This document shows, piece by piece, positions 1 to 26,411 of a stretch of 64,000 bases of DNA (the stretch's first letter is position 1; each line of letters starts with the position of its first letter). A model generated the notes under the pieces. The model saw nothing but the letters and a program-made list of their open reading frames with translations, made no database searches and was not told the origin of the DNA. This stretch comes from Aquilaria yunnanensis (lineage: Eukaryota > Streptophyta > Magnoliopsida > Malvales > Thymelaeaceae), in assembly GCA_039654915.1 (NCBI GenBank), contig CM077599.1, forward strand, positions 13,084,501-13,148,500. Direction: 5' to 3'. Both the position numbers and the translations under genes were made by a program.

Positions 1-2983
1 ATTTAATTATTATTTTACGGAATTAATTATTAGTTTAACTTATAAGTCTTTTTTATTAAATTTGTTAATGATTTTAAAAAAAATCTTTCTTTTTTATATC
101 TTATTATTCTTTTCTTTCTTTTCTTTTCTTTTCTTTATCTTTTTGATTTTTATCTTTCTCTTATCTTTCTTTTCTTTTTCTTATCTGATTTTTCTTGTTT
201 AATGAAGGATATTTATTATTTAAAGAATTACTCAATTTATAAAAGAATTAAAAAAAAATAATTAATTTTTTTTTAATAAGAAGTTAATTTAAAGGAATCA
301 AAGAGTTTAAAAATAAAAATCTTTGATCATGGTACGGGGCGTTGTTACTCAGCCAGACCTTCTTCACCAGGTGAAGCAGCTCAAAAGCGGGCACGAGACA
401 GTTTCCAGCCAATATACCATGAACTAAAAATTTTTTTTTTTTTGACTTAACAACATGGTTCAGATTTATTTTACATATATATTTTTTTATGGCTAATTTC
501 TTTAAATGAAATGAGTTTAACCATAAAATAAAGAAAAATTAAATAACAATAAATAAAGTGGAGGTTTTCTTCTTTTTTATTTTATTTTTTTTTGTTATTT
601 TTTGAAATCATTTGACTAAGATTTTTATAAAGGAAACAAAAAGTTATATCTTTTCATTATTTTAAAAGAAATAAGTAAAATATTACTGAATAAAATATTA
701 TCCTAAAATTTTTATTCTTTTTATTCTTTTTATTAATAAAGAAAGCTAAAAATTATATTTTATTATTTTAAAAGAAATAAATAAAATATTACTGAAAAAT
801 ATTAACCAAAAAATTTACTCTTTTTATTAATAAAGAAAACTAAAAAGTTATATTATAAAAATAAGTAAAATATTACTGAAAAATATTAACCCAAAAATTT
901 TACTCTTTTTATTCTTTTTTATTAATAAAGAAAACTAAAAAGTTATATTTTATTATTTTAATAAATAATTAATATATTAGTCCCAAAATTTTATTTTTAA
1001 TAAAGAAAATTTTATTAATATACTTTATTTAAAAATATTTCCAAGCCATGGATCCTGGCGAATCATTTGGTCATGGATTTTTAATTTTTGTTAAATTTTA
1101 ATTATTTAATTAATTACTAATTTTAATTATAATTTTATTGGATTTTTCTTGAATTTTTTATTTTAAAGATATGTTTAAAAAGAATTGATTTGTATATTTT
1201 TTTAGAATTATTTAATTATTTCTATTTATTAATTTTAACAAAAAGGAATAAAAAGTCAACTTTGTTATTTTTAAAGAAATAATAAAAAATAAAAATAATT
1301 GGCTTTTAAAAATGATTTTTTATTAGCCTTAATAATTAATTACAAAATAACCTTCTTTTAATTTTCATTTATTTATTTATTAGTAAAGGGTAAAGGTGAA
1401 TCAAATAAAATAAAGTGGGGCTTTTTGGCCATCCACTTTAAAAATAAATAATAATAAAGGTTAGCAAAGTTGATTAAATTAATTAACAACAATAATAAAA
1501 ATTAGCCAAGTTTAATTAATTGTTAACAACAATAATAAAAAGTTAGTCAAGTTAATTAATTAACAACAATAATAAAAAGTTAGCCAAGTTAATTAATTAA
1601 TAACAATAATAAAAGTTAGCCAAATTAATTAATTGTTAATTAACCAAATTAATTAAATTAATTAATTAACAAAAATAATAAAAAGTTAGAAGTTAATTAA
1701 TTAACAACAATAATAAAAGTTAGCCAAATTAATTAATTGTTAATTAACCAAGTTAATTAAATTAATTAATTAATTACAATAATAAAAAGTTAGTCAAGTT
1801 AATTAATTAACAACAATAATAAAAGTTAGCCAAATTAATTAATTGTTAATTAACCAAGTTAATTAAATTAATTAATTAACAACAATAATAAAAGTTAGAC
1901 AATTTAATTAATTATTAACAACAATAATAATAAAGGTTAGTAAAAATTAGCAAGTTAGTTGTTAGTTGTTAATAACAACAAAAAAAGAAAAAGGTTAGTA
2001 ATAATAACAATAATGAACAAATAAATAAACAAGTAAAAAAAAAATAAAAGAGTTAATTAATTAATTTTCTGTAAAGACAAAATAAAAAGGTTAGTGACTT
2101 AATAGAAAGAAATTGAAAAGATGATGGGTGAAATAGGGGTTTACCCTTTTGAATTAAAATTTTGAATTCCTGGGAAACGAAAACGATGACGCGGCCAGGG
2201 GCAGGGGGCGACGGCGTGGGGCGCGGGCGGCGGCAGGAGCGGCGAGGGGAGGGCACGGCGGCGGCGAACGGCGTAGGGCGGCGGTGGCGGGCGGCGAGGG
2301 GCACGGTAGAGAGAGGGAGAGAGAGAGAGAGGGAACAGCAGTGAAAAAAAAAAATTTGGCTTTCTGGGGAAGAAGGGAAGAGGGCTGGGGCTAAGGGCTG
2401 TAATTTTCTCTTTTTTAAAAACGGAGCTCTAAGTTTTTTTGGTATTTTTTTCTGTATTCAGCACTAAATTTGGAGGCCTATTTATAGAGGAAGTTTGGCC
2501 GAACTGTTGATGGATAAATTAATAAAAAATTTCAAACTTATCTTTTAAATTGGTAAAATGACAATTTCAGTCCTTTACGTCTCTCAGCCTCTGGATAAGT
2601 TCCTGAAGCTTCTGATTTTGACAATTTTGTCGTTTTCTGTCAATTTGGGCCAGAAACGTCGGTCGACCCAAAAATTCGTGTGACAAACTACCAAATGCTC
2701 CTGGAACTTTCAGAATTTGTCAATTTTTCCCTGAAACTTCTTAATTTTGTCATTTTTACCTCAAACTTTTAAATTTTGCCATTTTTTGGAGTTTTCTTTT
2801 TTTCTTTCAAATACACACATATATCATTTTAAATCAAATATTCACAAAACAAAAATGTATTTTAAACTAATTAAAATTTTTAGTAATAATAATAATAATA
2901 AAAATAATAATTTTTTTTATTTAATTTCTTTTATTTAATTTCTTTTAAAATTTTTTATGGTCGGACGAAATTGGGTGTCAACA
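1..2983 (-). repeat. 3' LTR (partial, cut by window start)
   Basis: This matches 14917-17880 base for base apart from scattered substitutions, homopolymer changes and a 14-bp duplication near 2926-2940 (ATTTAATTTCTTTT present twice). The LTR begins at 2983 on the minus strand (TGTTGACACC) directly after a purine tract. A TATA box (TATAAATA on the minus strand) lies at about 2480-2488. Roughly 500 bases at its far end are outside the window. Confidence 0.9.
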
Positions 2984-2996
2984 GCTGCCCCCCTTT
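2984..2996 (-). other. Polypurine tract (plus-strand primer site)
   Basis: On the minus strand the sequence AAAGGGGGGCAGC immediately precedes the LTR start TGTTGACACC. A purine-rich tract at this place primes second-strand DNA synthesis in LTR retrotransposons. It confirms that the element reads on the minus strand. Confidence 0.85.
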
Positions 2997-3119
2997 GCAT
3001 GCTTCATGGGACATGATGTATGCAAAGTTAGTTACCAAATTTCGTCCGGCTTAGCTAGGCATTGAAAACCTTCTCGCCGCCTAAATCCTGAGGTTAAGGA
3101 ACTTTCCTTAGAACCCCGG

Positions 3120-4372
3120 CGATAGGAGCTCTCCTATCGTTGAAGGAAAATTGATTGTTTCTGAGGCAAAAGTTCCATCCTTAAAACCTCGGATTGATTG
3201 ATTGATTTCGAAGCAAAGGTTCCATCCTTAAAATCTCGAATTGATTGATTGATTTCGAGGCAAAGGTTCCATCCTTAAAACCTCGAATTGATTGATTGAT
3301 CTCGCGGCAAAGGTTCCATCCTTAAAACCTCAGATTGATTGATTGATTTCGAGGCAAAGGTTCCATCCTTAAAACCCCGACGATAGGAGCAGTCCTACGG
3401 TTGATTGTTTTCGAGACAAAGGTTCCATCCTTAAAATCCCGACGATAGGAGCAGTCCTACCGTTGATTGTTTTTGAGACAAAGGTTCTATCCTTAAAATC
3501 CCGACGATAGGAGCAGTCCTACCGTTGATTGTTTTCGAGACAAAGGTTCCATCCTTAAAATCCCGACGATGAAAATTGATTATTTTCGAGGCAAAGGTTC
3601 TATCCTTAAAACCCCGATGATAAAAATTGATTATTTTCTAGGCAAAGGTTCCATCCTTAAAACCCTGATGATGAAAATTAATTATTTTTGAGGCAAAGGT
3701 TCTATCCTTAAAACCCCGATGATGAAAATTGATTGTTTTTTAGGCAAAGGTTCCATCCTTAAAACCCCGATGATGAAAATTGATTATTTTCGAGGCAAAG
3801 GTTCCATCCTTAAAACCCCGATGATGAAAATTGATTTTTTTCGAGGCAAAGGTTCCATCCTTAAAACCCCGATGGTGAAAATTGATTATTTTCGAGGTAA
3901 AGGTTCCATCCTTAAAACCCCGATGATGAAAATTGATTGTTTTCGAGGCAAAGGTTCCATCCTTAAAACCCCGATGATGAAAATTGATTATTTTCGAGGC
4001 AAAGGTTCCATCCTTAAAACCCCGATGCTGAAAATTAATTATTTTCGAGGCAAAGGTTCCATCCTTAAAACCCCGATGATGAAAATTGATTATTTTCGAG
4101 GCAAAGGTTCCATCCTTAAAACCCCGATGGTGAAAATTGATTATTTTCGAGGCAAAGGTTCCATCCTTAAAACCCCGATGGTGAAAATTGATTATTTTCG
4201 AGGCAAAGGTTCCATCCTTAAAACCCTGATGATGAAAATTGATTATTTTCGAGGCAAAGGTTCCATCCTTAAAACCCCGATGATGAAAATTGATTATTTT
4301 CGAGGCAAAGGTTCCATCCTTAAAACCCCGATGATGAAAATTGATTTTGAGGCTAAGGAGCTTTCCTTAGGA
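3120..4372. repeat. Tandem repeat array, 48-66 bp units settling to 51 bp
   Basis: About two dozen units share the core GGCAAAGGTTCCATCCTTAA. Units near 3180-3350 are about 48 bp, units near 3370-3560 are about 66 bp and carry a GACGATAGGAGCAGTCCTAC block, and units from about 3560 to 4350 are 51 bp. Because 51 is a multiple of three, the plus strand stays open from 3719 to 4393 and would encode 13 repeats of a 17-residue unit. That strand is antisense to the element, so coding is unlikely. The array lies between the LOG-like ORF and the 3' LTR. Confidence 0.9.
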
Positions 4373-4973
4373 CCTCGAGCGAAATTTATATGAAAGCAAT
4401 TGAAATTGGAATAATTTTCTTCGAAAGTGTGAATTTTTATAATAGGCGAGCGCAAAGAATTAGGCTTCGATAAAACGAGTGAATCTTAATGATGACAATA
4501 ACCCTGACAAATTATGTAAGGGGAACGGATGTTTGGAATCAATATTCAAGGTTCATCTAATATTTTCTTCAGTAAATATAGATTCCCTTGTGAGATATGT
4601 CATCCAAATAAGGTTAAAGCTTAACTACCCCAAAATGTTATGCCTAGTAGACCTAATAGGATGCGTCTCAAGAGTAATAAAAATTACTCTTTACTCAGCC
4701 ATTCCATCCTAAAGGCGTTGTCCTATGGTTTTAATATCAGCATGGACGAAGCTATATTATAAAAAAAGAAATTCCCTGAAAAGAAAAACTGAAACGCGAA
4801 AGAAAATGCTGATAATAAAACTAAAGGACAAGAAAAACGGATCAGATTGCTTCTTTCTTCCACAATACTTCAACAGGGTGAGTAGAGGACCATTATGGGA
4901 GTGAACTGGTCGGGAAAGACTGTCGTGTCCAGTCTATCTGAATCATTGCTGGATCTGGTTCAGGAACAAAAGC
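4373..4973. other. Spacer between the 51-bp array and the LOG-like ORF
   Basis: AT-rich retroelement interior, downstream of the LOG-like ORF in the element's orientation. It could be that ORF's 3' UTR. No domain, tandem repeat or conserved ORF was recognised. Confidence 0.5.
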
Positions 4974-5522
4974 TTATATTTTATCTAGCAATTCTTCAGC
5001 AGTTGTTGCGGATATTATGATTCGCCGTGCCACTCTTGATATGAAATTCTTCTGCATAGCATAATCCATAAAAGCTATCAGACCTGTAAAGAAATTGTTA
5101 ACATTTAAAAGCCCAATGAGTTTCTTATGCAAATTAAGTTGGGCCATGGAAGCAATTTGAAAGACTTCTCCCAATGTGCCAAAACCACCTGGTAGAGCGA
5201 TAAAAGCATCAGCATTTAAAAGCATTTGTAACACATGCTCTTGCAAATTTTTAACCACTAATTCTTTTCCAATCGTGCCCCCAGAAATAAATTTCAGAGG
5301 TCCAGGGATAATGCCCAGAACTTGACTTCCTCCTAGAGATGCTGCTGATGCTACACCTCCCATTAATCCGACACTACCTCCTCCATAAACTAAATGTATT
5401 TTTCGCTCAGCTAATACTCTACCCAAATGGTTGGCTGCTTTTAAATACTCTTCATCTTTTCCAGGAAAAGCCCCAGAAAATACACAAATACTTCGGGATT
5501 TACGAGTTGGGGTTTTCTCCAT
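4974..5522 (-). CDS. LOG-like protein (cytokinin riboside 5'-monophosphate phosphoribohydrolase family)
   Basis: LOG enzymes release active cytokinin bases from their ribotides in plant cytosol and nuclei. From the Met at 5522 the ORF gives 182 residues; an upstream in-frame Met at 5609 would add 29, but that segment overlaps a TATA box at 5555-5562, so 5522 is preferred. Family marks in order are ICVFSGAFPGK, LVYGGGSVGLMG and the nucleotide-binding loop ALPGGFGTLGE. The stretch before the loop reads LQEHVLQM, where LOG proteins usually have an Arg-Lys pair (MHERKAEM type); the catalytic arginine position appears to be His, so normal activity is doubtful. There is no intron, although plant LOG genes have several, which suggests capture through an RNA copy. 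It lies inside the LTR retrotransposon, on its sense strand, downstream of three cysteine-rich ORFs. Confidence 0.85.
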   Translation of the reverse strand: MEKTPTRKSRSICVFSGAFPGKDEEYLKAANHLGRVLAERKIHLVYGGGSVGLMGGVASAASLGGSQVLGIIPGPLKFISGGTIGKELVVKNLQEHVLQMLLNADAFIALPGGFGTLGEVFQIASMAQLNLHKKLIGLLNVNNFFTGLIAFMDYAMQKNFISRVARRIIISATTAEELLDKI

Positions 5523-5554
5523 TCCTATCCTTACCCTTGTGAGAAAAGAGGATA

Positions 5555-5562
5555 TATTTATA
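5555..5562 (-). promoter_or_regulatory. TATA box of the LOG-like cassette
   Basis: The minus strand reads TTCATCTCTATAAATATATCC about 33-40 bases upstream of the ATG at 5522. Nearly the same block (TTCATCACTATAAAT) stands upstream of two of the cysteine-rich ORFs, which suggests a shared core promoter. Transcription from it has not been shown. Confidence 0.5.
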
Positions 5563-5611
5563 GAGATGAAGAGATAAGGCAATAATTTTATTTTCAAGAA
5601 TGGATACATTA

Positions 5612-6075
5612 TTGCCAGCTATTCACAGTAGTCACGAGTATGACTCTGGTCAGGTATGGGTACACTATCGTTAAAAGAGGAGGAAAATTTTCAAAATAGC
5701 TGCTAGCATGTACAGTAGTCACTACTGTAGCTTACGTCAGGAGTAGGTACGTGATTGTTGGAAGAGAAGGAAAATTTTAAAAAGTGGCAGCTATATACAG
5801 TAATCATAACTGTATCTCATGTCAGGAGTGGGTACATTATTGGGAGGATAATTTCAAAAGCGACAGCTAGCATATACAGTAATCGTGACTTTGGTTCACG
5901 TCAGGAGTGAATACATTATTACCAAAAGGGGAGGAAAATTTCAAAAGCGACAGCTAGCATGTACAGTAATCGTGACTTTGGTTCACGTCAGGAGTGGATA
6001 CATTATTACCAAAAGGGGAGGAAAATTTCAAAAGCGACAGCTAGCATGTACAGTAATCGTGACTTTGATCCTCGT
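5612..6075. repeat. Minisatellite of about 77-88 bp units upstream of the LOG-like TATA box
   Basis: Five to six units share CAGTAATCGTGAC, a TCACGTCAGGAGT block and GGGGAGGAAAATTTCAAAAG. The units near 5872-6045 are nearly identical and those near 5612-5795 are diverged. The same sequence occurs once in each spacer between the cysteine-rich ORFs (for example near 6770-6850 and 7580-7690), so the array is a local amplification of that spacer. On the minus strand several units carry a TGACG motif, the core of plant bZIP (as-1-like) sites. Confidence 0.8.
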
Positions 6076-6115
6076 CTTCCACTGGCTTTGCGTCCAGTAA
6101 TAGCTTCAATGCTTT

Positions 6116-6664
6116 CTATGAATCGGTGATTTGCATCTCATCTAGCTTTTTCACAAACTGGCAAACAGGGTCGTTTAGGGTCAGATTAACAAGACTGTAA
6201 CGTTCTCGTTCTTTTTGGAGAATTATCCATAATCCAACAACCTCAAATTGCACTATTCCGCAAGAATGCGCTTCAAGAACCTCTCGGATATCTTCCAGAG
6301 ATTCCTTACGCAAGCCATTCTTAATGAATCTTATTCTATCATTACGATTTCTGGTGATCACTCCTGGAGAACGACATTTATTGCCGCAAATCCACCATTC
6401 ACAATTATGACAAACGCCTAGCCTCTTTGCTCTTCTTTTTTTGGCATAAGCGCTTTTACCAAAGCCGGGCATACGGGGAAAAAACGCTTCTGGAACTTCA
6501 CCAGCTGAACGAACCTTAGCTTCAATTAGCCACCGCACATTATCAGGAATGCCTTTGTGCATAAATACTCTGAATCATTCACATCTAGCTTGATAAATCT
6601 TTTTAAGAACATTTATTGGGAAGGAAGGAAAATACTTTCGTAGGGCGGAAAGAGAAGATTCCAT
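6116..6664 (-). pseudogene. Cysteine-rich NABP-like ORF, copy 1 (in-frame stop near the N-terminus)
   Basis: Homologous to copy 2 along its whole length: 549 bases from the ATG at 6664 to the stop at 6116. One in-frame TGA stands where copy 2 has a CGA codon, about 30 codons in. After it, an internal Met at 6562 opens a 148-residue ORF that keeps the core: a basic stretch (YAKKRRAKRLG), a CxxC...C...C cluster (CHNCEWWICGNKC) and the conserved C-terminal part. If translated, it would start from the internal Met. The motif layout resembles the nucleic-acid-binding proteins of plant betaflexiviruses and alphaflexiviruses; this is a recognition call, not a search result. A TATA box lies at 6723-6730. 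Confidence 0.7.
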
Positions 6665-6722
6665 TGATGAAGGAGGCAAAGAAAGAAATTAGTGATTGTA
6701 GGAAACGAAAATAACTAACACA

Positions 6723-6730
6723 TATTTATA
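6723..6730 (-). promoter_or_regulatory. TATA box upstream of NABP-like copy 1
   Basis: The minus strand reads TTTCATCACTATAAATATG here, about 60 bases upstream of the ATG at 6664. The same block occurs upstream of copy 2 and of the LOG-like ORF. Confidence 0.45.
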
Positions 6731-6880
6731 GTGATGAAAGGGATAATGCGTTAATTACACTTACAGAAGCAAGTACATTATTGTCAAAAGAAAAGACAAA
6801 TGATAGCTTATATGTACAGCAATCATGACTGTGGCTCTCATCTTCCACTGATTTATGTCCAGTAATGGCTTCAATGCCTT

Positions 6881-7429
6881 CTATAAGTCGGGGATTTGCT
6901 TCCCATCCAGTTTCCTTACAAACTGACAAACAGGGTCGTTTAAAGTCACATTCCCAAGACTGTAACGATCTCGTTCTTTATGGTAAGTCCTCCACAATTT
7001 GACAATTTGACCTTGCACTTTTCCACAAGAATGCGTTTCAAGAGTCTCTCGGATATCTTCCAGAGATTCCTTACGCATGCCATTCTTAATGAATTTTCTT
7101 TTATCTTCACGATTTGTGGAGATGTATCCTAAAGAGCGACATTTAGTATTACAATTCCATCGCCCACATTTATAACACACGCCTAGTCTCTTTGCTCTTC
7201 GCCTTTTGGCATAACGGCTTTTACCTAAACCGGGTATACGGGGCATAAATGCATCTGGAACTTCACCCGCCAAACGGACCTTAGCTTCAATTATCCACTG
7301 CACATTATCGGGAATACCTTTGCGTGTAAAAACTCTGATTCTTTCACATCTAGCAAGGTAGATCTTTTTAAGGACTTTTATTGGAAGGGAAGGATAGTAT
7401 TTTCGCAGTGCAGAAAGAGTAGAATCCAT
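6881..7429 (-). CDS. Cysteine-rich nucleic-acid-binding-like protein, copy 2 (intact)
   Basis: This is the only copy open over its full 182 residues. The N-terminal 40 residues (ALRKYYPSLPIKVLKKIYLA) look helical and are followed by the core near residues 70-105: a basic run YAKRRRAKRLG, then CYKCGRWNCNTKC, a CxxCx6CxxxC-like cluster that could bind zinc. FIKNG follows, then a C-terminal region (LNDPVCQFVRKLDG) shared by all copies. A serine/glycine-Tyr-Ala-basic run just before Cys-x-x-Cys is the signature of the small cysteine-rich nucleic-acid-binding proteins of carla-, viti- and allexiviruses, several of which suppress RNA silencing. The C-terminal third is not recognised. A host zinc-finger origin cannot be excluded. 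It sits on the sense strand of the LTR element, 216 bases upstream of copy 1. Confidence 0.75.
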   Translation of the reverse strand: MDSTLSALRKYYPSLPIKVLKKIYLARCERIRVFTRKGIPDNVQWIIEAKVRLAGEVPDAFMPRIPGLGKSRYAKRRRAKRLGVCYKCGRWNCNTKCRSLGYISTNREDKRKFIKNGMRKESLEDIRETLETHSCGKVQGQIVKLWRTYHKERDRYSLGNVTLNDPVCQFVRKLDGKQIPDL

Positions 7430-7549
7430 TGATGAGAGAAGAATTTGAGAGAAGAGGGAAATGAATCAGTTATTGTAGGAGACTGGAATAACCGACTTTA
7501 GAAGTCACGAGGTATCTTATCCGCTGCTTAATCAGAAGGAAGAACACGC

Positions 7550-7556
7550 ATTTATA
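7550..7556 (-). promoter_or_regulatory. TATA box upstream of NABP-like copy 2
   Basis: The minus strand reads TTTTCATCACTATAAATGCG about 120 bases upstream of the ATG at 7429. The leader between them matches the leader of copy 3 and is longer than that of copy 1, which lacks about 50 bases. Confidence 0.45.
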
Positions 7557-7718
7557 GTGATGAAAAGGGATAACGTGTCGATTACACTTAGGGGAGCATG
7601 TACATCTGTCAAAAGAAAATGCAAACTTTTCCAAATATAACAAACTGTATGTACAGTAATTGTGACTGTGACTCACATCTTCCACTGGCTTTACATCTAG
7701 TAACGGCATTAACGGCTT

Positions 7719-8268
7719 CTATGAGTCGAGTATTTGCTTCCCATCCAGTTTTCTTACAAGCTGGCAAACAGGGTCATTTACAGTCAGATTCCCGGGACTG
7801 TAACGGTTTCGTTCTTTATGAAAAATGCTCCATAAACCAAGAAGTTCACGTTGCACAGATCCACAAGAATGCGTCTCAAGAGTCAATTGGATATCATCCA
7901 ATGAGTCCTTACTCAGGCCATTCTTAATGAATCGTATTTTATCTTCTCGATTATCAGAGATCATCCCTAAAGAACGACATTTAGTATTACAAGTCCACCG
8001 TCCACATTTATGGCAGACTTGTAACCTTTTCGCTCTTCGCTTTTTGGCATAAGAGCTTTTGCCTATTCCAGGCATGTGAGACACAAATGTCTCTGGGATT
8101 TCACCTGCCAGACGAACCTTGGCTTCGATTAACCACCGCACATCTTCAGGGATTCCTTTGTGCATCAGAACTCTTAATCGTTCACAGCGAACTTGGTAGA
8201 TCTTTTTTGAGAATGTTCATTGGGAGAGAAGGAAAATATTTTTGTAAGACAGAAAAAGTAGGATCCAT
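7719..8268 (-). pseudogene. Cysteine-rich NABP-like ORF, copy 3 (frameshift near the N-terminus)
   Basis: The homologous ATG is at 8268. One extra A in a run of six (five in copy 2) shifts the frame about 25 codons in. An internal Met at 8165, at the same place as in copy 1, opens a 148-residue ORF that keeps the basic run (YAKKRRAKRLQ), the cysteine cluster (CHKCGRWTCNTKC) and the C-terminal LNDPVC-like motif (here VNDPVCQLVRKLDG). It is the first of the three copies in the element's direction of reading. A TATA-like TAAAATAAAG lies near 8390-8399 but is weaker than those of the other cassettes. Confidence 0.7.
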
Positions 8269-8399
8269 TTTCTAGAGGGAAGTAAAAGACAGAAGAGAGG
8301 AAAGAATCAGTTATTATGGGCAACTGAGAGAACCGACTTGAGAGTCACGGAGTACCGTATCCGCCGTTTAACCGGAAAAGCGGATCCTACTTTATTTTA

Positions 8400-11358
8400 G
8401 TATCATAGATATTTCTTATCTTTGATATCTCATCAGGCATGACATTGATCCAGTCCTTGATTATTGTCTGCTTTCGACGACAATATTTCTCGATATCCGC
8501 GCTTATCTTTGACCATAGCTATTTCTTATCTTGGATACCGCTAAGCTGGCGTCAATTCTGTCCATCAAGGTGTAGCCTCGATTATTGAATCGATTGCCAG
8601 GCTGTTGACAATATTGTCTACTTTATCTTTAAATTCCTGATGAGGCTAGGTCCAGCGTATTAACTGTGCATCTAATAATAGATTAGTAGGAGTTGATGTC
8701 ATTGAGATCTCAGCTTATACTGCTGTAGCTGTGCGGTGGATGTGCTTCCTATTTGATCCCTGTTATGTAAAAGCTATGTATGCATGATGTAAAATGCATG
8801 AATGTAATGTATGCGTAACTGATTGTATTCTTTTGTTTTTGTTTTTTTTTTTTTATGGATATAGTTCTTTATATCTTTGCTTTATTGGATCCTCTTTATA
8901 ATTGTCTTCTATCATTGAATCTCTTTATGCTTTCCAGCTGTTGTCCATTGTCTCGCTTTCCAGCTATTGTCCATTGTCTCGCTTTCCAGCTGTTGTCCAT
9001 TGTCTCAAAAGCCCAACTCTTTTCAAAATCCTCTTTCTTTGACTTGTTCTTTGAATTTTGGCCTCAATTTCTTTAAAGTTGGCCCGCCTCATAATTTATA
9101 TCTCTTTTGAATACTCATCCTTTGTCATGGATTTCATACTATCAGAGGCTTAACTTTCAATGTTTCATTGTCCCTTTTCTTGTGGCGTGTCGACACTTGT
9201 TTACCCCCATGTTACAGTCCGAATGATTGCTCTTCCTTAGACTCAGGTTCTGATCCATAAGACTTGCCCCCTTGTCTATTGAGCTTCTTTGTTGGCGGTA
9301 CTCCTCTTACGCTTCGTAGAGACTACTTTGCCCCCCTGAATATGGTGTTTATGTGGAAAGAGATATCATCTCGCCTTTGATTTAACAGAAGGTCGAGCAT
9401 TTCTAGACCTTTGTGATGGCACTTGATCGTAAATTTCTCTTACAAGAACCACATCTTATTAAAGAAAGACTCAAGCTATGTCCTCACTTTTAAGTCTACA
9501 TACATTAATGAATAATGGTTTGACCTTAAAGAAAAACTTTCATCAATTTGCAAAGCTTGACAAAGTAATTTACGGTCTTTGTTTTTAATTAAAATATCCT
9601 GCCATTCTTCCCTTTCCAACTCGAAGACATAAACTGTGCAAGGCAATAAGGTAGAAACATGATTTACAATAATAGCCTTTTAACTGACTGAGGATGATAT
9701 CGAGAGGTAAAAGTTAGGTGTGAGGAAAGTTAAGTTTGAATGTTTTTTTTTTGTGGCAGTCTTTTAGCTGAATGAGAATAATATTAAGAGGTAAATATTA
9801 GGTCTAAGTAAAGTTAAGTTTGAGTGGTGTGAAAGAAGGGTCTTTTAATACTACTCGTGAGCAGATTTGATTATGGTGAAAAACTCAATAGTGATGACTT
9901 CAAACTTGCCACCTTTTCTAGAAAGTTTGATCTCATCTGTTGCCCCCCAACTATCGTAATCTTTATGTACACTTGGGTTGAGGGTTGCTTTTGTCTTCTA
10001 AACCGTCTTTGCAGGTTTTCAGTCTAGAATCCATAGCTCACTTTTTTTGTTTTCTTTCTTTTGCTCTAACTTGAGCCTTTTTTTTTTTTGTTTTTTTTTG
10101 TTTCCCTTTTTTTTTTGTGAGCTATGGTGATGACATATTTGATAACTTTCTTGAAGTGAGATGACTCAAGTGGCCTTGCTTGCTCGTGTTTGTTCTCAGT
10201 TCTTTTTGGTTTTGAATTTTCCCTTGTTGGCTTTTTGATGGAAGGGATGAACTTTTTCCTTTTCGGAGTTTTTGTTACAGAGAACCGAGATCATAGCCTT
10301 CTTGAAATGAGATGATTCAAGTGGCCTTACTTGCTTGTGTTTGCTCTCAGTCTCTCTTTTTTTTTGTTTTGAATTTTCCCTTGTTGGTTTTTTGATGGAA
10401 GGGATGAACTTTTTCCTTTTTTTTTTTTTGGAATTTGTGTTATGGAGAACCGAGATCATAGCCTTCTTGAAGTGAGATGATTCAAGTGGCTTTAGTTGCT
10501 TGTGTTTGCTCTCTGTCTCTTTTTTTTGTTTTGGATTTTCCCTTTAATGGCTTTTGATGGAAGGGATGAACTTCTTTCCTTTGTTGGAATTTGTGTTGTG
10601 GAAAACTGAGAATCCTTTTTTTTTTTTTGTATTGAGCATTTGTGAGAATTGGGAGGCCACTGAAGTCATTTAATATGAGAGCTAACTTTTCTTGGAAGCT
10701 AACCCTGGACTTCTTGCAAGGATGTTGATAACCACTGTGAATTTTTTTTTAAGAGTTGGGGTGCAACATATGAAATCATTTTTGCTAGATTTAGTAGTAC
10801 TTTCCAGATCACCACTATCAAATCTCCCTTAACTTTTTATTTTCACCCACGAGTAGTATCATTTAGAAAGCAAAGTATGATGGCAATAATAGTTAGTGCA
10901 ATGGCAAAGATTGAGAGATAGAGGTAAAAATGAAATTTTTGGTAAAAAGTGTTAGAATGTGTAGGTGTAATAATTGAATTAAAAAGTGGTAGAATGCACA
11001 CATAACATCTTTTTGTTGGAGAACAAAAAGAATTACCGGTTGTCAAAAAGTAAAGTGTGATGACAATAATGGATAGTATAATGGCAAAGAGTGTAAAAAT
11101 GGAAAGTAGTAGAATGCACGCATTACATCTTTTTGTTGTACCAGAAAGAATACCAGGTGTCCATCTAACAAAGACTACACCCTAGATTCTGGACTAAATC
11201 TAGGAGATTTTTACTATTAGATTACTTTTGCAAGCTTTCAAAGATACAAGTTTATTCAGAGGATTCCCTGTCATTCGAAAATGTATGCGGACTGTTAGGT
11301 CAGATCTGACTTGGAGCCCTTCCAAAATCAATGTAATTCCAGCTCAAAATCTTCACTT
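8400..11358. other. Retroelement interior without coding signal; several local tandem duplications
   Basis: This is where pro-pol would be expected, yet no protease, RT, RNase H or integrase motif is seen in any frame. It holds short tandem repeats: a 26-bp unit three times (8930-9008, GCTTTCCAGCTGTTGTCCAT), an 85-bp unit twice (9660-9830), a 150-165 bp unit three times with T-rich tracts (10140-10620) and a diverged pair (10855-11160). Poly-T runs occur around 10075-10110 and 10610. Confidence 0.6.
10140..10620. repeat. Tandem repeat, 150-165 bp unit, three copies
   Basis: Each unit contains CTTCTTGAAATGAGATGATTCAAG, a CTCAGTCTCTTTTTT tract and TTTGATGGAAGGGATGAACTT. Unit starts are near 10146, 10298 and 10461. 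It lies inside the LTR element between gag and the accessory cassettes. Confidence 0.75.
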
Positions 11359-11498
11359 TCAATTACCAATCACATCGGGCCTAGCAGCTTGACCTCGGTT
11401 TTGTTTGATTTGTAGAGGAATGGCCTTGGGACTTGACGGCTTAAGAGTAGGTTTTGAGATTGGTATAGCATTGACTTCTTGTTCTTTAATGATCACAT

Positions 11499-13250
11499 TC
11501 ACATCATCATAAAAACGATAAGTTGGGATGAGTCTATGAGTCTTTGCAGATTTTTACGGAATTCTGAGCATTCTTGGATAGAATGACTCTTACTGTCATG
11601 AAAGTTGCACCATTCCTCATCTTCAACTTCTTCATGTCCAAAAGAAGGCTTTCCCATGATAATCCCTTCTTTCACAAGGCATGAATATACATGCTTAAGA
11701 GGGGTTATGATATCATTGACTGACTTTTTCATCAGCCGGTGTTCTTCTATCATATTGACTGGTTTTTCTTGATGAGGCGGCAATGGATTGTGAGTGACGT
11801 TCGGTTCATCGGAAAAGTCCAACCACTTTGATTCGATTAATTGTTGGACTATACGTTTCAATGCTGTGCAATTTTCCAAGCCATGGCCTGGAACACCATC
11901 ATGATATGGGCAAGTTATGTTGGGGTCATACCACGTTGGATATGGGGGTCCAAATGGATTTGTAGGAATTGGACGGATAAGTTGACTTTCTATGAGTTTT
12001 GGATACAACTCAGTGTAAGTCATGGGAATTGGTGGAAAAACTTCTTTTGGTCTTCGTGTGGGTACTGGAGGAGTCGGAACAGGTGGCCGTAATTGATTAG
12101 GCCTGTTGAGAGGATAATTGTTGGGCCTATTGGGAGGATAATCATTAGGCCTATTGGAAGGATAATCATTGGGCATATTGGGAGGATAGTTATTGGGCCT
12201 ATTGGTAGGATAATAATTGGGCCTTTTGGCAGAATAGGATAGGCGAGGACCGGTAGCCACAGTACCTACGAGGGGAATCCCTCTTTCGCGTCCTATTTGT
12301 TGTACTTCTTCATCTTTTGTTCTGGATGGTCCTTCTCTTTTCATAGGATCACTAAAAGACTCAGCAATCTTCCCAGTCCTAATCCCATGCTCGATCCTTT
12401 CTCCAGACATGACAACATCGGAGAAATTAGTTGCCGAATTGCCAATGAGTTTGTCATAATATGGGTATTTCAGTGTCTGGACAAACAAAGTGACCATTTC
12501 TTTTTCTGTCATGGGTGGCTGAACTTGTGCAGCTAAGTCCCTCCACCGTTGGGCATATTCCTTGAAAGTTTCTGGCTTTTTCTTCTCCATGTTTTGGAGA
12601 GTTTGGCGATCCGGAGCCAAGTCCATAACATGTTTATAGTTGCCGATAAAGGCCTGAGCAAGGTCATTCCAAGTTTTGATGTTTCTTGGTCCTTGACTTA
12701 GATACCACTGCAATGCTGATTTTGTGAGACTTTCCTGAAAAAGTGCAATCCACACCTTTTCATCTTTTGTGAGTGGTTGTAGTCTTCTTAGGAACAGTGT
12801 GATGTGAGTGATGGGATCACTCGTTCCGTCGTATTTTACGAAATCCGGTACTTTAAAGTCCGAAGGGATTATGACGTCTGGCACTAAGCAGAGGTCATCC
12901 ACTGAGAGAGATCCGAATATATTACCTCCTTCAATGGCTCGCAGTCTCTTCTCTATTGTTTCGATTTTTTGAGATTCTCCTTCTTCCTTTGGTGGTGTCT
13001 TCTTCTCTTCATACACAGTGTCTTGTTTCAGGTGAACACTAGCAGACTGTCCTGGTTCCTGAAACAGGTTTTCTTGGACTGAGACTCGTTGCGGAGTGAA
13101 TCTCGGAGGATAAGTGGGATCTTGTGCTTCTTTGATGGGAACTTGAGTTACTTTCTCCTTGATTAGTTCCATGAATTGTCTCATCTGTTCTGCCATACCT
13201 TCTATCTTGGACTTCATCTCTATAAGACGTCCTTCGGCTTGTTCTGCCAT
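11499..13250 (-). CDS. gag: Gag polyprotein of the Tat-type LTR element
   Basis: Gag packages the RNA into virus-like particles in the cytoplasm. The 583-residue ORF starts with a short coiled-coil-like segment (residues 1-35), then a retrotransposon gag domain at about 130-285 (FVKYDGTSDPITHITLFLRR, WNDLAQAFIGNYKH, FKEYAQRWRDLA). A proline/asparagine repeat (RPNxYPxN, six units) lies near 345-385. Two Cys-x-x-His-type knuckles, CPYHDGVPGH...C near 446 and CNFHDSKSHSIQEC near 541, are typical of Tat/Athila gag. The ORF ends at a TGA after MMM; one base fewer in a T run just before it seems to have shifted the frame, since the adjacent frame continues for about 45 residues to 11359 with the expected style. 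No protease follows. Confidence 0.9.
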   Translation of the reverse strand: MAEQAEGRLIEMKSKIEGMAEQMRQFMELIKEKVTQVPIKEAQDPTYPPRFTPQRVSVQENLFQEPGQSASVHLKQDTVYEEKKTPPKEEGESQKIETIEKRLRAIEGGNIFGSLSVDDLCLVPDVIIPSDFKVPDFVKYDGTSDPITHITLFLRRLQPLTKDEKVWIALFQESLTKSALQWYLSQGPRNIKTWNDLAQAFIGNYKHVMDLAPDRQTLQNMEKKKPETFKEYAQRWRDLAAQVQPPMTEKEMVTLFVQTLKYPYYDKLIGNSATNFSDVVMSGERIEHGIRTGKIAESFSDPMKREGPSRTKDEEVQQIGRERGIPLVGTVATGPRLSYSAKRPNYYPTNRPNNYPPNMPNDYPSNRPNDYPPNRPNNYPLNRPNQLRPPVPTPPVPTRRPKEVFPPIPMTYTELYPKLIESQLIRPIPTNPFGPPYPTWYDPNITCPYHDGVPGHGLENCTALKRIVQQLIESKWLDFSDEPNVTHNPLPPHQEKPVNMIEEHRLMKKSVNDIITPLKHVYSCLVKEGIIMGKPSFGHEEVEDEEWCNFHDSKSHSIQECSEFRKNLQRLIDSSQLIVFMMM

Positions 13251-13319
13251 TAATCTTGTTTGAAGCCGAGTTGAATATCGGTGTTGAGGTCCAATTTTAC
13301 CTTTTTAAAGGAATATTTA

Positions 13320-13680
13320 TTTTATTAGATTCTATGCGTATATGATTGATGTGATGGATGCATGCAATGAGATTATGTTTTTATCAAAATTAATATGCAC
13401 GTGATTGATGTAATGGAATGCATGCAATGAGATTATTTTTATCAGATTTTATATGCGTGTGATTGATGTAATGGATGCATGCAATATAAAGTGAGATTAT
13501 GTTTTTATCAGACTTTATATGCACGTGATTAATGTAATGGAATGCATGCAATGAGATTATTTTTATCAGATTTTATATGCATGTGATTAATGTAATGGAA
13601 TGCATGCAATGAGATTATTTTTATCAGACTTTATATGCACGTGATTAATGTAATGGAATGCATGCAATGAGTGAGTTTGC
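13320..13680. repeat. Tandem repeat of about 57 bp in the element's 5' leader
   Basis: Five to six units share GTGATTGATGTAATGGAATG, CATGCAATGAGATTATTTTT and ATCAGATTTTATATGC. They lie between the 5' LTR and gag, in the likely packaging and leader region of the element RNA. Confidence 0.8.
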
Positions 13681-14395
13681 TTATCCAATATCATGGAACT
13701 TCAAGACTTTTAGTTGTCATTATAAAGACCAAAAAGTTAGCAAAGTTTAATGCATGGTTTTGATGTATGAAGAGTAATTGCACAAAATAGAAGTACAAGA
13801 AAAGAAAGATAAGGTTATTAATAAGTTAAATAACAATTAACAACTCATGAACTATTATGGATAAACAAGTTAAAACCATACGTAGAAAAGTGTAGAGTAA
13901 CAACACAGCATAACAAGGATATGCTTATGGCGTTGGTAAAATGGTAGAAATTCTATGGTCAGTTCTATGGTTAAGTGGGGAGTTCTATATGCATAAGGTG
14001 GTTTATCAAACAGGCAAGGGATAGTTCCCGAATCCCGTCACTAAATCATAGTGACGGCCCGATTCCTTACTCTCTAGGGTTAATGTAAGGAATGGATTAA
14101 TTCGAGTCGTAGCTTTTCGTGGGCCCATGCAGAGACTAACCGTCTCAGAAGGCAATACACTACTTTGCTACTTTGAAACCGGTGAAGGCTTGGAGACCAT
14201 GGCCTCTCAAGGACAACAACACCAATTCCGCTTAGAAAGAACGTGTTCGATTTGAAGAAGCTCGGGTATAGAGCTTCATATTGTGAATGCATTATGCATG
14301 TTTACCTAAGTAAATATAACATATAAATCCACATAAATATAAGCAAAGCAAATCAAAATAAATCAACTTGTAGGCTCGACTCACTAACGTCGACA
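13681..14395. other. 5' untranslated region of the LTR element
   Basis: This lies between the primer site and the leader tandem repeats. No coding signal was recognised. The short minus-strand ORF at 14080-14292 has no recognised similarity. Confidence 0.5.
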
Positions 14396-14413
14396 TCCCC
14401 AGTGGAGTCGCCA
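14396..14413 (-). other. Primer binding site (tRNA-Arg-type, inferred)
   Basis: The minus strand reads TGGCGACTCCACTGGGGA three bases after the LTR end (CCACA at 14421-14417). A primer site starts with TGG, the complement of the tRNA CCA end, and this sequence is typical of Ogre/Tat elements, which are reported to use tRNA-Arg. The tRNA identity is from memory of the family. Confidence 0.75.
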
Positions 14414-14416
14414 AGC

Positions 14417-17400
14417 TGTGGCAACGTCGAGGTCTTCTGGAGTCGCCACCAATCTGTTTCACCTAAGTCGATTGGACACCTTAAAATTGGTCTGCGAGAG
14501 TTCGGGGATCGGGAGTACGGTTACGCTAAAATAATATTGTTATAGCGCCCAAAATTGGCACCTTAATTGATTTTAATTTTGTTTTACTTTGCTTTTAAAA
14601 ATTTTCAGTTAATTTAGATATTTTAACTGAATTAGTCGAAAATGTTGATTTTGGTAATTAATTCGGGTAAAATTTTATACTTCCGAACCATGGACTCTGC
14701 CGAGTCATTTGGACACGGAAGATTTTGATTCCGAACCATGGACTCTGCCGAGTCATTTGGACACGGAATTTGGTGAAATTTTAAATAATTTTATCCATAT
14801 ATGGATTTTTATTTTTTTATTTAATTTATATAGTTTTTTTTTAAAAAAAGGTTGATATTTCCAAACCGTAGATCCTGCCGGATTATCCGGATATGGAAAT
14901 TAATTTAAAGTTAATTATTTAATTATTATTTTATGGAATTAATTATTAGTTTAACTTATAAGTCTTTTTTATTAAATTTGTTAATGATTTTAAAAAAAAT
15001 CTTTCTTTTTTATATCTTATTATTCTTTTCTTTCTTTTCTTTTCTTTTCTTTATCTTTTTGATTTTTATCTTTCTCTTATCTTTCTTTTCTTTTTCTTAT
15101 CTGATTTTTCTTGTTTAATGAAGGATATTTATTATTTAAAGAATTACTCAATTTATAAAAGAATTAAAAAAAAATAATTAATTTTTTTTTTAATAAGAAG
15201 TTAATTTAAAGGAATCAAAGAGTTTAAAAATAAAAATCTTTGATCATGGTACGGGGCGTTGTTACTCAGCCAGACCCTCTTCACCAGGTGAAGCAGCTTA
15301 AAAGCGGGCACGAGACAGTTTCCAGCCAATATACCATGAACTAAAAATTTTTTTTTTTTTGACTTAACAACATGGTTCAGATTTATTTTACATATATATT
15401 TTTTTATGGCTAATTTCTTTAAATGAAATGAGTTTAACCATAAAATAAAGAAAAATTAAATAACAATAAATAAAGTGGAGGTTTTCTTCTTTTTTTATTT
15501 TATTTTTTTTTTGTTATTTTTTGAAATCATTTGACTAAGATTTTTATAAAGGAAACAAAAAGTTATATCTTTTCATTATTTTAAAAGAAATAAGTAAAAT
15601 ATTACTGAATAAAATATTATCCTAAAATTTTTATTCTTTTTATTCTTTTTATTAATAAAGAAAGCTAAAAATTATATTTTATTATTTTAAAAGAAATAAA
15701 TAAAATATTACTGAAAAATATTAACCAAAAAATTTACTCTTTTTATTAATAAAGAAAACTAAAAAGTTATATTATAAAAATAAGTAAAATATTACTGAAA
15801 AATATTAACCCAAAAATTTTACTCTTTTTATTCTTTTTTATTAATAAAGAAAACTAAAAAGTTATATTTTATTATTTTAATAAATAATTAATATATTAGT
15901 CCCAAAATTTTATTTTTAATAAAGAAAAGTTTATTTATATACTTTATTTAAAAATATTTCCAAGCCATGGATCCTGGCGAATCATTTGGTCATGGATTTT
16001 TAATTTTTGTTAAATTTTAATTATTTAATTAATTACTAATTTTAATTATAATTTTATTGGATTTTTCTTGAATTTTTTATTTTAAAGATATGTTTAAAAA
16101 GAATTGATTTGTATATTTTTTTAGAATTATTTAATTATTTCTATTTATTAATTTTAACAAAAAGGAATAAAAAGTCAACTTTGTTATTTTTAAAGAAATA
16201 ATAAAAAATAAAAATAATTGGCTTTTAAAAATGATTTTTTATTAGCCTTAATAATTAATTACAAAATAACCTTCTTTTAATTTTCATTTATTTATTTATT
16301 AGTAAAGGGTAAAGGTGAATCAAATAAAATAAAGTGAGGCTTTTTGGCCATCCACTTTAAAAATAAATAATAATAAAGGTTAGCAAAGTTGATTAAATTA
16401 ATTAACAACAATAATAAAAATTAGCCAAGTTTAATTAATTGTTAACAACAATAATAAAAAGTTAGTCAAGTTAATTAATTAACAACAATAATAAAAAGTT
16501 AGCCAAGTTAATTAATTAATAACAATAATAAAAGTTAGCCAAATTAATTAATTGTTAATTAACCAAATTAATTAAATTAATTAATTAACAACAATAATAA
16601 AAAGTTAGAAGTTAATTAATTAACAACAATAATAAAAGTTAGCCAAATTAATTAATTTTTAATTAACCAAGTTAATTAAATTAATTAATTAATTACAATA
16701 ATAAAAAGTTAGTCAAGTTAATTAATTAACAACAATAATAAAAGTTAGCCAAATTAATTAATTGTTAATTAACCAAGTTAATTAAATTAATTAATTAACA
16801 ACAATAATAAAAGTTAGACAATTTAATTAATTATTAACAACAATAATAATAAAGGTTAGTAAAAATTAGCAAGTTAGTTGTTAGTTGTTAATAACAACAA
16901 AAAAAGAAAAAGGTTAGTAATAATAACAATAATGAACAAATAAATAAACAAGTAAAAAAAAAATAAAAGAGTTAATTAATTAATTTTCTGCAAAGACAAA
17001 ATAAAAAGGTTAGTGACTTAATAGAAAGAAATTGAAAAGATGATGGGTGAAATAGGGGTTTACCCTTTTGAATTAAAATTTTGAATTCCTGGGAAACGAA
17101 AACGATGACGCGGCCAGGGGCAGGGGGCGACGGCGTGGGGCGCGGGCGGCGGCAGGAGCGGCGAGGGGAGGGCACGGCGGTGGCGAACGGCGTAGGGCGG
17201 CGGCGGCGGGCGGCGAGGGGCACGGCAGAGAGAGAGAGAGAGGGAACAGCAGTGAAAAAAAAAAATTTGGCTTTCTGGGGAAGAAGGGAAGAGGGCTGGG
17301 GCTAAGGGCTGTAATTTTCTCTTTTTTAGAAACGGAGCTCTAAGTTTTTTTGCTATTTTTTTCTGTATTCAGTACTAAATTTGGAGGCCTATTTATAGAG

Positions 17401-17880
17401 GAAGTTTGGCCGAACTGTTGATGGATAAATTAATAAAAAATTTCAAACTTATCTTTTAAATTGGTAAAATGACAATTTCAGTCCTTTACGTCTCTCAGCC
17501 TCTGGATAAGTTCCTGAAGCTTCTGATTTTGACAATTTTGTCGTTTTCTGTCAATTTGGGCCAGAAACGTCGGTCGACCCAAAAATTCATGTGACAAACT
17601 ACCAAATGCTCCTGGAACTTTCAGAATTTGTCAATTTTTCCCCGAAACTTCTTAATTTTGTCATTTTTACCTCAAACTTTTAAATTTTGCCATTTTTTGG
17701 AGTTTTCTTTTTTTCTTTCAAATACACACATATATCATTTTAAATCAAATATTCACAAAACAAAAATGTATTTTAAACTAATTAAAATTTTTAGTAATAA
17801 TAATAATAATAAAAATAATAATTTTTTTTATTTAATTTCTTTTAAAATTTTTTATGGTCGGACGAAATTGGGTGTCAACA
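14417..17880 (-). repeat. 5' LTR, complete, 3464 bp
   Basis: It begins TGTTGACACC at 17880 and ends CCACA at 14417, giving TG...CA ends. Features inside are a TATA box at 17390-17397, a GC-rich island at about 17105-17225, an array of about 38-bp units rich in TTAATTAATTAACAACAATAAT (16380-16850) and two copies of ACCATGGACTCTGCCGAGTC (14690-14770). Only U3 (about 500 bases) lies upstream of the TATA box, so R-U5 is unusually long. Confidence 0.85.
17390..17397 (-). promoter_or_regulatory. TATA box of the 5' LTR promoter
   Basis: CTCTATAAATAGGCC on the minus strand, about 485 bases into the LTR. The same box occurs at the matching place in the other LTR. Transcription would start near 17360 and run toward gag. 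Confidence 0.6.
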
Positions 17881-24534: not shown

Positions 24535-24783
24535 TTAAGTGAAGGGTAAATTGCACGCGTTACCCCCAATCTTTTAATTTTGTTTCTGCTCTAACCCCAA
24601 CCTTCATTTTGTTTGTTGCGCCTCCCTAATGTGGCTAAAACGTTTTATTTTGAACTTTTTTTGGATGGAATCCGTTATATTGGATGGAAAATGACGTGTC
24701 AACATAAGATTGTAGGAGAAAATTTCTTTACCAAAAAAAGCTTTAAAAATTTCAAATCTAGCAAAAACACCCATCCACAGTGT

Positions 24784-25095
24784 CACTGCCTGCACCTAGC
24801 AAGGCCAAGTTGTGGAAGGAAGATCAGGACGCCGGAGGCATGGACGAGCTTTTGGCGGTCCTTGGCTATAAGGTGCGCTCCTCCGACATGGCCAACGTCG
24901 CACAGAAGCTCGAGCAGCTCGAGATGGTGATGGATTCGGCCCAGGAGGATGGGATTTCCCACCTATCTGACACTGTCCATTACAACCCAACTAACCTCCA
25001 TGGATGGGTCCAGACTATGCTCTCTGAGCTCAACAATCCCCCCATTTATGAGCCTCAACAGCCGCAGATTGACCGCCAATTTTCTATCTTCAACA
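24784..25095 (+). pseudogene. Captured DELLA protein N-terminal fragment
   Basis: DELLA proteins repress gibberellin signalling and bind the GID1 receptor through their N-terminus. This plus-strand ORF carries that part: [20 protein letters not shown], then LEQLEMVM, then [13 protein letters not shown] and MLSELN, i.e. both the DELLA and VHYNP motifs. The Met at 24780 could start it. The ORF runs to 25157, but after about 25095 it enters the antisense of the P450 piece. The poly-Ser region and most of the GRAS domain are missing; another GRAS piece lies at 25815-26040. If expressed, the peptide could in principle bind GID1, which is speculation. Confidence 0.85.
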
Positions 25096-25099
25096 GTGA

Positions 25100-25815: not shown

Positions 25816-26040
25816 GGGGGTTGCAAGTTGGCCCAATTGGTTGAAACAATCGGCCTCGAATTCAATTTCGGGGGGTTTGTTTGCAACAGCTTGGGGGATC
25901 TGGAGCCTGAAATTCTGAATCTCCATCCGCCGGAAGTCGAGGCGGTGGCCGTGAATTGCATGTTCAAGCTTCATCCACTCCTGGCACGACCCGGCGGAAT
26001 AGAGAAGGTATTGGGCTTGATTAAGGCAATGAAGGGTGAG
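25815..26040 (+). pseudogene. Captured DELLA GRAS-domain fragment
   Basis: The plus strand reads KLAQLVETIGLEFNFGGFVC, NSLGDLEPEILNLHPPEVEA and FKLHPLLARPGGIEKVLGLI in sequence, the middle of a DELLA GRAS domain (LHRI-VHIID to PFYRE region). Orientation matches the N-terminal DELLA piece at 24784-25095, so both may come from one capture that lost its middle and gained the inverted P450 piece. After 26040 the sequence is not recognised up to the inverted repeat. Confidence 0.85.
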
Positions 26041-26411
26041 GGAAGGCCGGAGAGCGACGACAGATGAGAGTGGCGGTAGGTGAGGGAGGTGGACAGCGGA
26101 TAGGTTGTTCTAAGAGGGAGGCGAAGATGAAGAGGAAGAAGCATGAGGGGTTTCTTGCTAGATTTGAAATTTTTAAAGTTTTTTTTTGTAAAGAGAAATG
26201 TTCACAAGGGTTAAAACAAACGTTTTCCTCTACAATCTTATATTGACGTGTCATTTTCCATCAAATACAACGAATTCCATCCAAAAAAAAGTTCAAAATG
26301 AAACGTTTTAGCTACATTAGGGAGGTGCAACGAATAAAATGAAGGTTGGGGTTAAAACAGAAATAAAATTAAAAGGTTGGGGGTAACGCATGCAATTTAC
26401 CCTTTAAGTGA

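Follow-up and report, generated by a model that had tools for sequence, protein, structure and literature searches.

Extra open reading frames (ORFs) have been described in Ogre, Retand and Athila elements among the long terminal repeat (LTR) retrotransposons of plants (PMC6317226, PMC11963269, PMC7264820), and the accessible text on Ogre gives their function as an open question (PMC6317226). Here we describe a family of such elements through one copy in a 64,000-nt window of the Aquilaria yunnanensis genome (GenBank assembly GCA_039654915.1, contig CM077599.1, positions 13,084,501 to 13,148,500, forward strand); "the window" denotes this whole stretch. The window is plant-like nuclear DNA and maps to C7:13084501-13148500 of the 842-Mb genome. 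Positions 1-17880 of the window, together with 500 bp to its left, form an 18.4-kb LTR retrotransposon on the minus strand, which carries three cysteine-rich ORFs related to viral nucleic-acid-binding proteins (NABP1, NABP2 and NABP3) and one LOG-like ORF. A first-pass annotation, made from the sequence alone, had given the coordinates 4974..8268; the cassettes do lie there, but the whole element extends far beyond those limits (Table 1). Judged by its sequence features and those of its relatives, the window copy is best explained as a pol-less member of a Tat/Ogre-type Ty3/gypsy family that has been active recently.

As far as the accessible sections of the Ogre study go, pol-bearing copies of this family resemble Ogre in their second RNase H, two ORFs about 0.2 kb apart, large LTRs, tandem repeats and extra ORFs, and differ in that the extra-ORF domain of Ogre is a plant mobile domain, whereas here tandem NABP-like genes and LOG lie in sense orientation downstream of pol (PMC6317226). 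The Retand elements, with their TRP28 ORFs, also hold tandem repeats and conserved extra ORFs in the region from pol to the 3' LTR, and a regulatory nucleic-acid-binding role has been proposed; in the accessible text their known-domain ORFs are antisense, whereas all four are sense here (PMC11963269). A LOG-type domain is also non-canonical cargo of LOG/YgdH-bearing Ty3/gypsy elements in Citrus and Populus, for which the available part of the paper mentions no NABP-like partner (PMC9289625). The giant Phalaenopsis Gypsy element likewise has an extra ORF of a flexivirus-type kind, thought to counter host control, but this is a single ORF, encodes an AlkB-type RNA demethylase and was tested in vitro, according to the same partial text (PMC9289625). 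Finally, the available sections on the cysteine-rich proteins of carla-, allexi- and mandariviruses point to shared features, namely the PF01623/PF05515 match and a basic stretch before the cysteine cluster (PMC12172455, PMC8839810). The Aquilaria proteins differ in being encoded by a retrotransposon, each element having three or four such genes, in extending N-terminally beyond the matched part of the profile, and in having a CX2CX4CX3C cluster instead of the CX2CX12CX4C spacing printed for a carlavirus in the accessible text (PMC8839810). The first-pass annotation had known of no element with this content, which does not hold for LOG, already in print as cargo of plant Ty3/gypsy elements in the part of that paper available (PMC9289625). 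For NABP-type cargo, no report of such ORFs carried by a retrotransposon was found in the literature searched, where many subscription papers were beyond reach. LOG-like ORFs have also reportedly been noticed by Steinbauerova and colleagues in two Athila-like elements.

The module belongs to the transposing unit and is recently moved cargo, a conclusion about which we have next to no doubt. A GAGAA target-site duplication directly flanks both LTRs, and the LTRs, primer site, polypurine tract, gag and cassettes were all located on the minus strand, as originally annotated. The LTR pair is near-identical, with 20 mismatches over 2,962 compared positions and 33 gap columns in a global alignment of the in-window part (17 mismatches and 25 gaps by BLAST) and 5 mismatches without a gap in the outer 500 bp. 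Overall, 25 differences over 3,462 compared positions amount to 0.72%, corresponding to about 0.28 or 0.52 million years at substitution rates of 1.3e-8 or 7e-9, respectively. In the window, the TTCATCnCTATAAAT block occurs in exactly three places, 5' of LOG, NABP1 and NABP2, which agrees with the near-identical block annotated ahead of three of the four ORFs. We searched for this block in the 842-Mb genome, using the reversed sequence as a control, and found 3,960 + 3,992 = 7,952 places versus 6 + 3 = 9 for the control. The 100 places listed, which lie within the initial 8.1 Mb of contig C1, group into 37 arrays, in every one of which the final, LOG-side block has T and earlier blocks have A or G (17 A-A-T, 7 G-A-T, 6 A-T, 3 T alone, and one each of G-G-A-T, G-G-T, A-A-A-T and G-T). 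At 2.70 blocks per array, extrapolation gives about 2,900 arrays genome-wide.

A genome search with NABP2 returned 9,036 first-look candidates, and all 150 that were scored, the window included, were 95-100% identical. These lie on eight large contigs and one small one, and 135/150 have no stop, a proportion biased toward intact copies because they were the best matches. We also fetched 20 further block-bearing copies from C1, reading in each the 10 kb that precede the second cassette. NABP3 sequence was present in all 20 (partial in L009), and 16 have it as an uninterrupted full-length frame. The target-site duplication, the near-identical LTRs, the regular arrays and the occurrence of NABP3 in every block-picked copy together uphold the earlier reading of the array as element cargo that moved recently. 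A single nested event is disfavored by the 7,952 blocks, the array in 20 copies, the selection signal described below and the abundance of NABP2.

Of the 20 copies, four (L010, L020, L021 and L024) have a Tat/Ogre-type pol with an array of this kind behind it. In another 14 the place of pol is taken by non-coding sequence, and the remaining two (L009 and L016) are rearranged upstream. In all four pol-bearing copies the pol frame is 1,144 aa long and includes reverse transcriptase, RNase H, a second RNase H, and the zinc-binding and core domains of integrase, at matching positions (RT_RNaseH 415-517, RVT_3 582-692, rve 858-955). Ahead of pol, L020 (open frames 587-3949 and 4146-7577) and L021 (423-3785 and 3978-7409) have a further frame of 1,121 aa that contains gag and G-patch; this frame is split in L024, and its later part alone was seen in L010. 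According to the accessible text, Ogre is marked by an extra RNase H situated between the first one and integrase, and by a pair of ORFs that lie 274 bp apart on average (PMC6317226). Both occur in these relatives, the former in 4/4 pol ORFs and the latter, as gag and pol ORFs with a short gap, in L020 and L021. All four pol-bearing copies have open NABP3, NABP1 and LOG frames downstream of pol; of NABP2, which straddles the border of the fetched pieces, only open parts were seen. The family module comprises usually three, sometimes four NABP-like genes and one LOG, and in copies that have pol it lies behind pol. Among the four pol-bearing copies, three have an extra NABP frame (L034, L035 and L036; truncated in L036), and cassette number thus varies. 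One pol-bearing copy has a 1,526-bp LTR overlap that is 100% identical, and another has LTR pieces at 92% and 95%; the LTRs of the pol-bearing partners are related, at about 71-88% similarity when compared by pieces.

The 14 pol-less copies share the non-coding stretch of the window copy, with no sense frame above 250 aa between gag and NABP3, and gag similarity is full length in 4/14. A six-frame scan of window positions 8270-11498 gave no Pfam domain at E≤0.1, and a pol remnant was ruled out at that threshold. The window copy therefore fits a non-autonomous LTR retrotransposon with gag, having LTRs, primer-binding-site-like and polypurine-tract-like sequences and no pol. A primer-binding site complementary to tRNA-Arg is a mark of Ogre; the primer-binding-site-like sequence here may be of that kind, the window holding no tRNA gene for comparison. 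The array had been described as standing in place of pol, which fits this pol-less derivative and not the family, because the array follows pol in the pol-bearing copies. The first-pass annotation had also proposed looking for a pol-bearing partner, and four of the 20 copies supply one.

All three cysteine-rich ORFs exceed the cut-off of PF01623 (Carla_C4), and two exceed that of PF05515 (Viral_NABP), the third (6116-6562, NABP1) falling 0.1 bit short. Members of these families are flexivirus proteins that bind nucleic acid and suppress silencing. A protein search returned 147 NABP relatives at E≤0.01, and 50 of the best 120 are exactly 182 aa long. Named sources among the matches listed were Xanthoceras, Acer, Rhamnella and Orobanche. 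At 90% identity, some clusters contain 47 to 109 sequences. Among aligned members, Carla_C4 was detected at E≤0.01 in 21/21 and Viral_NABP in 20/21. A basic stretch lies immediately ahead of the CX2C cluster in 195 of 237 family proteins, and 176 of the 237 have the spacing CX2CX4CX3C. In a fold search with a structure model of predicted local distance difference test score (pLDDT) 67, treated with caution, 21 of the top 25 ranks were named flexivirus NABP, silencing suppressor or RNA-binding proteins (best E 0.055), giving the viral kinship weak backing; an earlier model (pLDDT 58.5) was rejected as too weak. The genes themselves sit inside a retrotransposon, with LTRs, gag and a target-site duplication, and not in an RNA virus genome. 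A core search aimed at viral NABPs yielded no viral sequence, the few named sources among the best 120 of 570 matches being plants, and pattern stretches in IMG/VR (46 for the NABP alignment and 10 for LOG) yielded no confirmed relative. Plant and viral NABP proteins may go back to an old shared origin, whichever way the transfer went. In a tree built from 78 proteins, NABP3 grouped with P0002 (100/95) and NABP1 with P0001 (100/98), with bootstrap values that had not settled. Two gene models, P0085 and P0111, resemble integrase- or protease-linked NABPs, but Pfam found no such domain in them.

LOG enzymes are cytokinin riboside 5'-monophosphate phosphoribohydrolases that release active cytokinin. 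The LOG-like ORF has as sequence relatives the solved structures of At2g37210, At5g11950 and LOG enzymes, and its PGGxGTxxE motif reads PGGFGTLGE in the window and in 7/7 other genomic LOG copies. From these sequence relationships, the ORF is a homologue of the cytokinin-activating LOG enzyme, and the role of LOG enzymes is named in the accessible part of PMC9289625. In the window LOG, a His upstream of the motif replaces an Arg found in 10/12 aligned relatives. Both this Arg and the C-terminal end are retained in 7/7 other genomic copies and lost in the window. The in-frame stop of NABP1 and the frame change of NABP3 both fall within the N-terminal 34 residues, and only NABP2 is full length among the window NABP ORFs. 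The cargo of the window copy is decaying, since NABP1, NABP3 and LOG carry disabling changes. By eye, the 87-bp repeats 5' of LOG (5625-6076) hold repeated TGACGT-type motifs, which could be bZIP-binding sites.

Related modules may exist in other plants. Reevesia pubescens alone accounts for 32 clusters among the best 120 of 7,871 LOG matches, which suggests that mobile elements have amplified LOG there too. A Rhamnella gene model (P0103) fuses an NABP-like part with LOG; precomputed Pfam annotation shows both, and our own scan showed LOG only. NABP and LOG matches on contigs of equal size (8,723 and 4,511 nt) are an indirect pointer to joint contigs. Equal sizes among shorter contigs were set aside as a sign of pairing, being likely due to chance. 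From these sequence matches, NABP-LOG pairing outside the Aquilaria yunnanensis genome is likely.

We quantified constraint with Nei-Gojobori ratios of nonsynonymous to synonymous divergence (dN/dS), pooled over pairs of open copies. Because the pairs are non-independent and open copies were chosen, these ratios indicate constraint in source lineages and not exact strengths. The ratio was 0.144 for NABP3 (16 open copies), 0.208 for NABP1 (6 copies) and 0.246 for LOG (6 copies, one partial). For comparison, pol gave 0.093 (4 copies), and gag gave 0.229 in three pol-less copies, 0.170 across five and 0.079 in two pol-bearing copies. These values suggest that both NABP-like genes and LOG have been kept by purifying selection. 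Compared against each other, the window NABP cores have dN/dS of 0.24-0.45 and dS of 0.42-0.83. The triplication is thus much older than the insertion, its dS being 58 to 116 times the LTR divergence of 0.007.

The near-identical blocks had also been read as a sign that each ORF so preceded might be an independent transcription unit. In the window, 6 places match the block with at most 2 mismatches versus 1.65 expected. Comparing upstream regions with 60 shuffles per pair gave z scores of 12.3 for LOG-NABP1, 4.9 for LOG-NABP2 and 21.8 for NABP1-NABP2. The score of NABP2-NABP3 was 27.4, for the leader part only, and LOG-NABP3 (0.6) and NABP1-NABP3 (0.9) were near background. The best-conserved part of the module shared by the LOG, NABP1 and NABP2 cassettes is its TATA core, which had been singled out before conservation was compared: 22/26 positions agree inside versus 61/116 outside it for LOG-NABP1, 20/26 versus 51/103 for LOG-NABP2, and 24/27 versus 88/125 for NABP1-NABP2. 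Promoter function of these modules is therefore plausible. The competing explanation, to which we give a substantial though minority share of belief, is that the blocks are leftovers of duplication and the cassettes are expressed from the LTR through splicing or re-initiation. Tandem duplication would explain the similarity upstream of NABP1 and NABP2, NABP3 has no block, and the block does not rise above its neighborhood in the 20 copies. However, LOG is unrelated to the NABPs and has the same module, with the TATA core best kept. The evidence on independent transcription points both ways: related modules lie upstream of LOG, NABP1 and NABP2, but NABP3 lacks the block and the block does not stand out among copies.

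We consider the best explanation overall to be a selected, host-acting module of NABPs and LOG in a Tat/Ogre-type family, a judgment finely balanced between right and wrong. NABP2, NABP1 and LOG would each have a TATA promoter of its own, giving 3'-nested mRNAs that end in the LTR. The basic zinc-finger NABPs would act in the nucleus like those of flexiviruses, so that the element is less strongly silenced and host transcription is altered. LOG would free active cytokinin and so favor dividing, meristem-like cells, through which new insertions would be inherited, and pol-less copies like that of the window would be mobilized in trans by pol-bearing ones. The accessible text of one study attributes suppression of RNA silencing to viral proteins of the NABP kind, and describes p12 of chrysanthemum virus B as also a transcription factor that induces hyperplasia (PMC12172455). 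Both arms of the proposed module would favor a dividing, poorly silenced cell, in which heritable retrotransposon copies are possible. The functional part of this explanation, host manipulation, is argued by analogy and falls somewhat short of an even prospect. Doubtful, although worth stating, is its most specific form, in which each gene has its own promoter, the NABP array blunts silencing and reprograms transcription, LOG raises cytokinin, cells stay dividing and permissive, and the lineage may be the source of flexivirus suppressors or share their origin.

Several results weigh against a selected, host-acting module. In addition to NABP3 lacking an upstream block in the window and the block being conserved no better than its surroundings across the 20 copies, every fetched copy had been selected through the block, and array-less copies with the same LTRs would be invisible among them. 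NABP3 is broken in 4/20 copies, which were dropped from the dN/dS estimate, and NABP2 gave a weaker signal (dN/dS 0.479, 3 copies only). One of the seven other LOG copies, L033, is without the usual start in frame. Furthermore, the carlavirus spacing CX2CX12CX4C was found in 0/237 NABP-family proteins, and 0/45 matches in the fold search with the pLDDT 67 model reached E≤0.001.

The main rival is that a selected module serves the element's own cycle, with the NABPs as RNA chaperones or packaging or export factors and LOG in a nucleotide-related step, having no effect on silencing or hormones. The same selection evidence applies to it, basic zinc-finger proteins bind nucleic acid according to Pfam descriptions, and the module has multiplied along with the element. 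Against it, we know of no evident role for a LOG enzyme in reverse transcription. The viral relatives, moreover, are known in the available text for silencing suppression and transcription effects (PMC12172455), and we regard an own-cycle role as possible but rather unlikely. Carriage of captured genes without benefit, as in retrotransposon gene transduction, agrees with the damage to three of the four accessory genes in the window copy, but is very improbable given dN/dS of 0.14-0.25 for NABP3, NABP1 and LOG, NABP copies that are old (dS 0.42-0.83 versus 0.007 for the LTRs) yet separately retained, and NABP3 frames fully open in 16/20 copies. Least credible of all is that the cysteine-rich ORFs are recent pieces of an RNA virus integrated into the element, as the Viral_NABP/Carla_C4 matches and the 21 flexiviral entries in the top 25 fold ranks (E 0.055 or worse) might suggest, since 8270-11498 holds no other domain and the ORFs belong to a broad plant family (182 aa in 50/120, best 120 of 147) with a different zinc-cluster spacing.

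Table 1. Features of the LTR retrotransposon in the window (window positions)
Feature	Position	Strand	Basis and remarks
3' LTR, inner 2,983 bp	1..2983	-	alignment with 5' LTR and left flank L029; 500 bp more outside, to C7:13084001
Polypurine-tract-like sequence adjoining 3' LTR	2984..2999	-	read directly
3' untranslated region, tandem repeats (51-bp unit and relatives)	3150..4380	-	repeat families D1, D4, D10
LOG-like ORF, 182 aa from family start	4974..5522	-	PF03641 E 1.1e-26; early end, His at conserved Arg
TTCATCTCTATAAAT block 5' of LOG	5556..5570	-	block search
~87-bp direct repeats between NABP1 and LOG	5625..6076	-	repeat families D11, D15
NABP1, 148-aa ORF	6116..6562	-	PF01623; N-terminal part up to ~6664 severed by in-frame stop
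TTCATCACTATAAAT block 5' of NABP1	6724..6738	-	block search
NABP2, intact 182-aa ORF	6881..7429	-	PF05515 E 6e-8, PF01623 E 1.3e-5
TTCATCACTATAAAT block 5' of NABP2	7550..7564	-	block search
NABP3, 148-aa ORF	7719..8165	-	PF01623/PF05515; N-terminal part to 8268 in other frame; no block 5'
Non-coding stretch at expected pol site	8269..11498	-	NABP3-side end present in pol-bearing copies too
gag ORF, 583 aa	11499..13250	-	PF03732 E 6.7e-12
Primer-binding-site-like sequence TGGCGACTCCACTGGGGAT, 3 nt from 5' LTR	14395..14413	-	read from sequence
5' LTR	14417..17880	-	alignment
Target-site duplication GAGAA	17881..17885	.	partner at C7:13083996-13084000, outside window

The remainder of the window holds several other features. 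Within the element, a 224-aa plus-strand ORF at 3719-4393 consists entirely of the 51-bp tandem repeat and is very likely a repeat artifact. At 24780-26067, a GRAS fragment (PF03514) and a plus-strand ORF whose motif resembles a DELLA N-terminus flank and overlap a minus-strand cytochrome P450 fragment (PF00067); these are possibly captured or rearranged gene pieces. Amidase-like pieces lie on the minus strand at 43761-45634, with PF01425 at 45083-45634 and no Pfam match at 43761-44147. ORFs for Transposase_21 (tnp2) and DUF4218 at 60214-62193 represent a CACTA-type DNA transposon, and 42160-42651 has a weak, sub-cut-off match to the hAT transposase dimerization region. An ORF at 33409-33780, without a Pfam match, resembles the end of a Helitron-type helicase.

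What extra ORFs do for plant LTR retrotransposons, the open question noted in the available text on Ogre (PMC6317226), is directly testable in this family because its extra ORFs have recognizable homologues, its copies are very recent, some carriers have pol, and the signal of selection can be read against pol as a yardstick. If the proposed explanation is true, relatives of viral-type silencing suppressors and a hormone-activating enzyme, both under selection inside a retrotransposon, would come as a surprise to specialists. It would also link the cargo of a mobile element to a protein family of RNA viruses.

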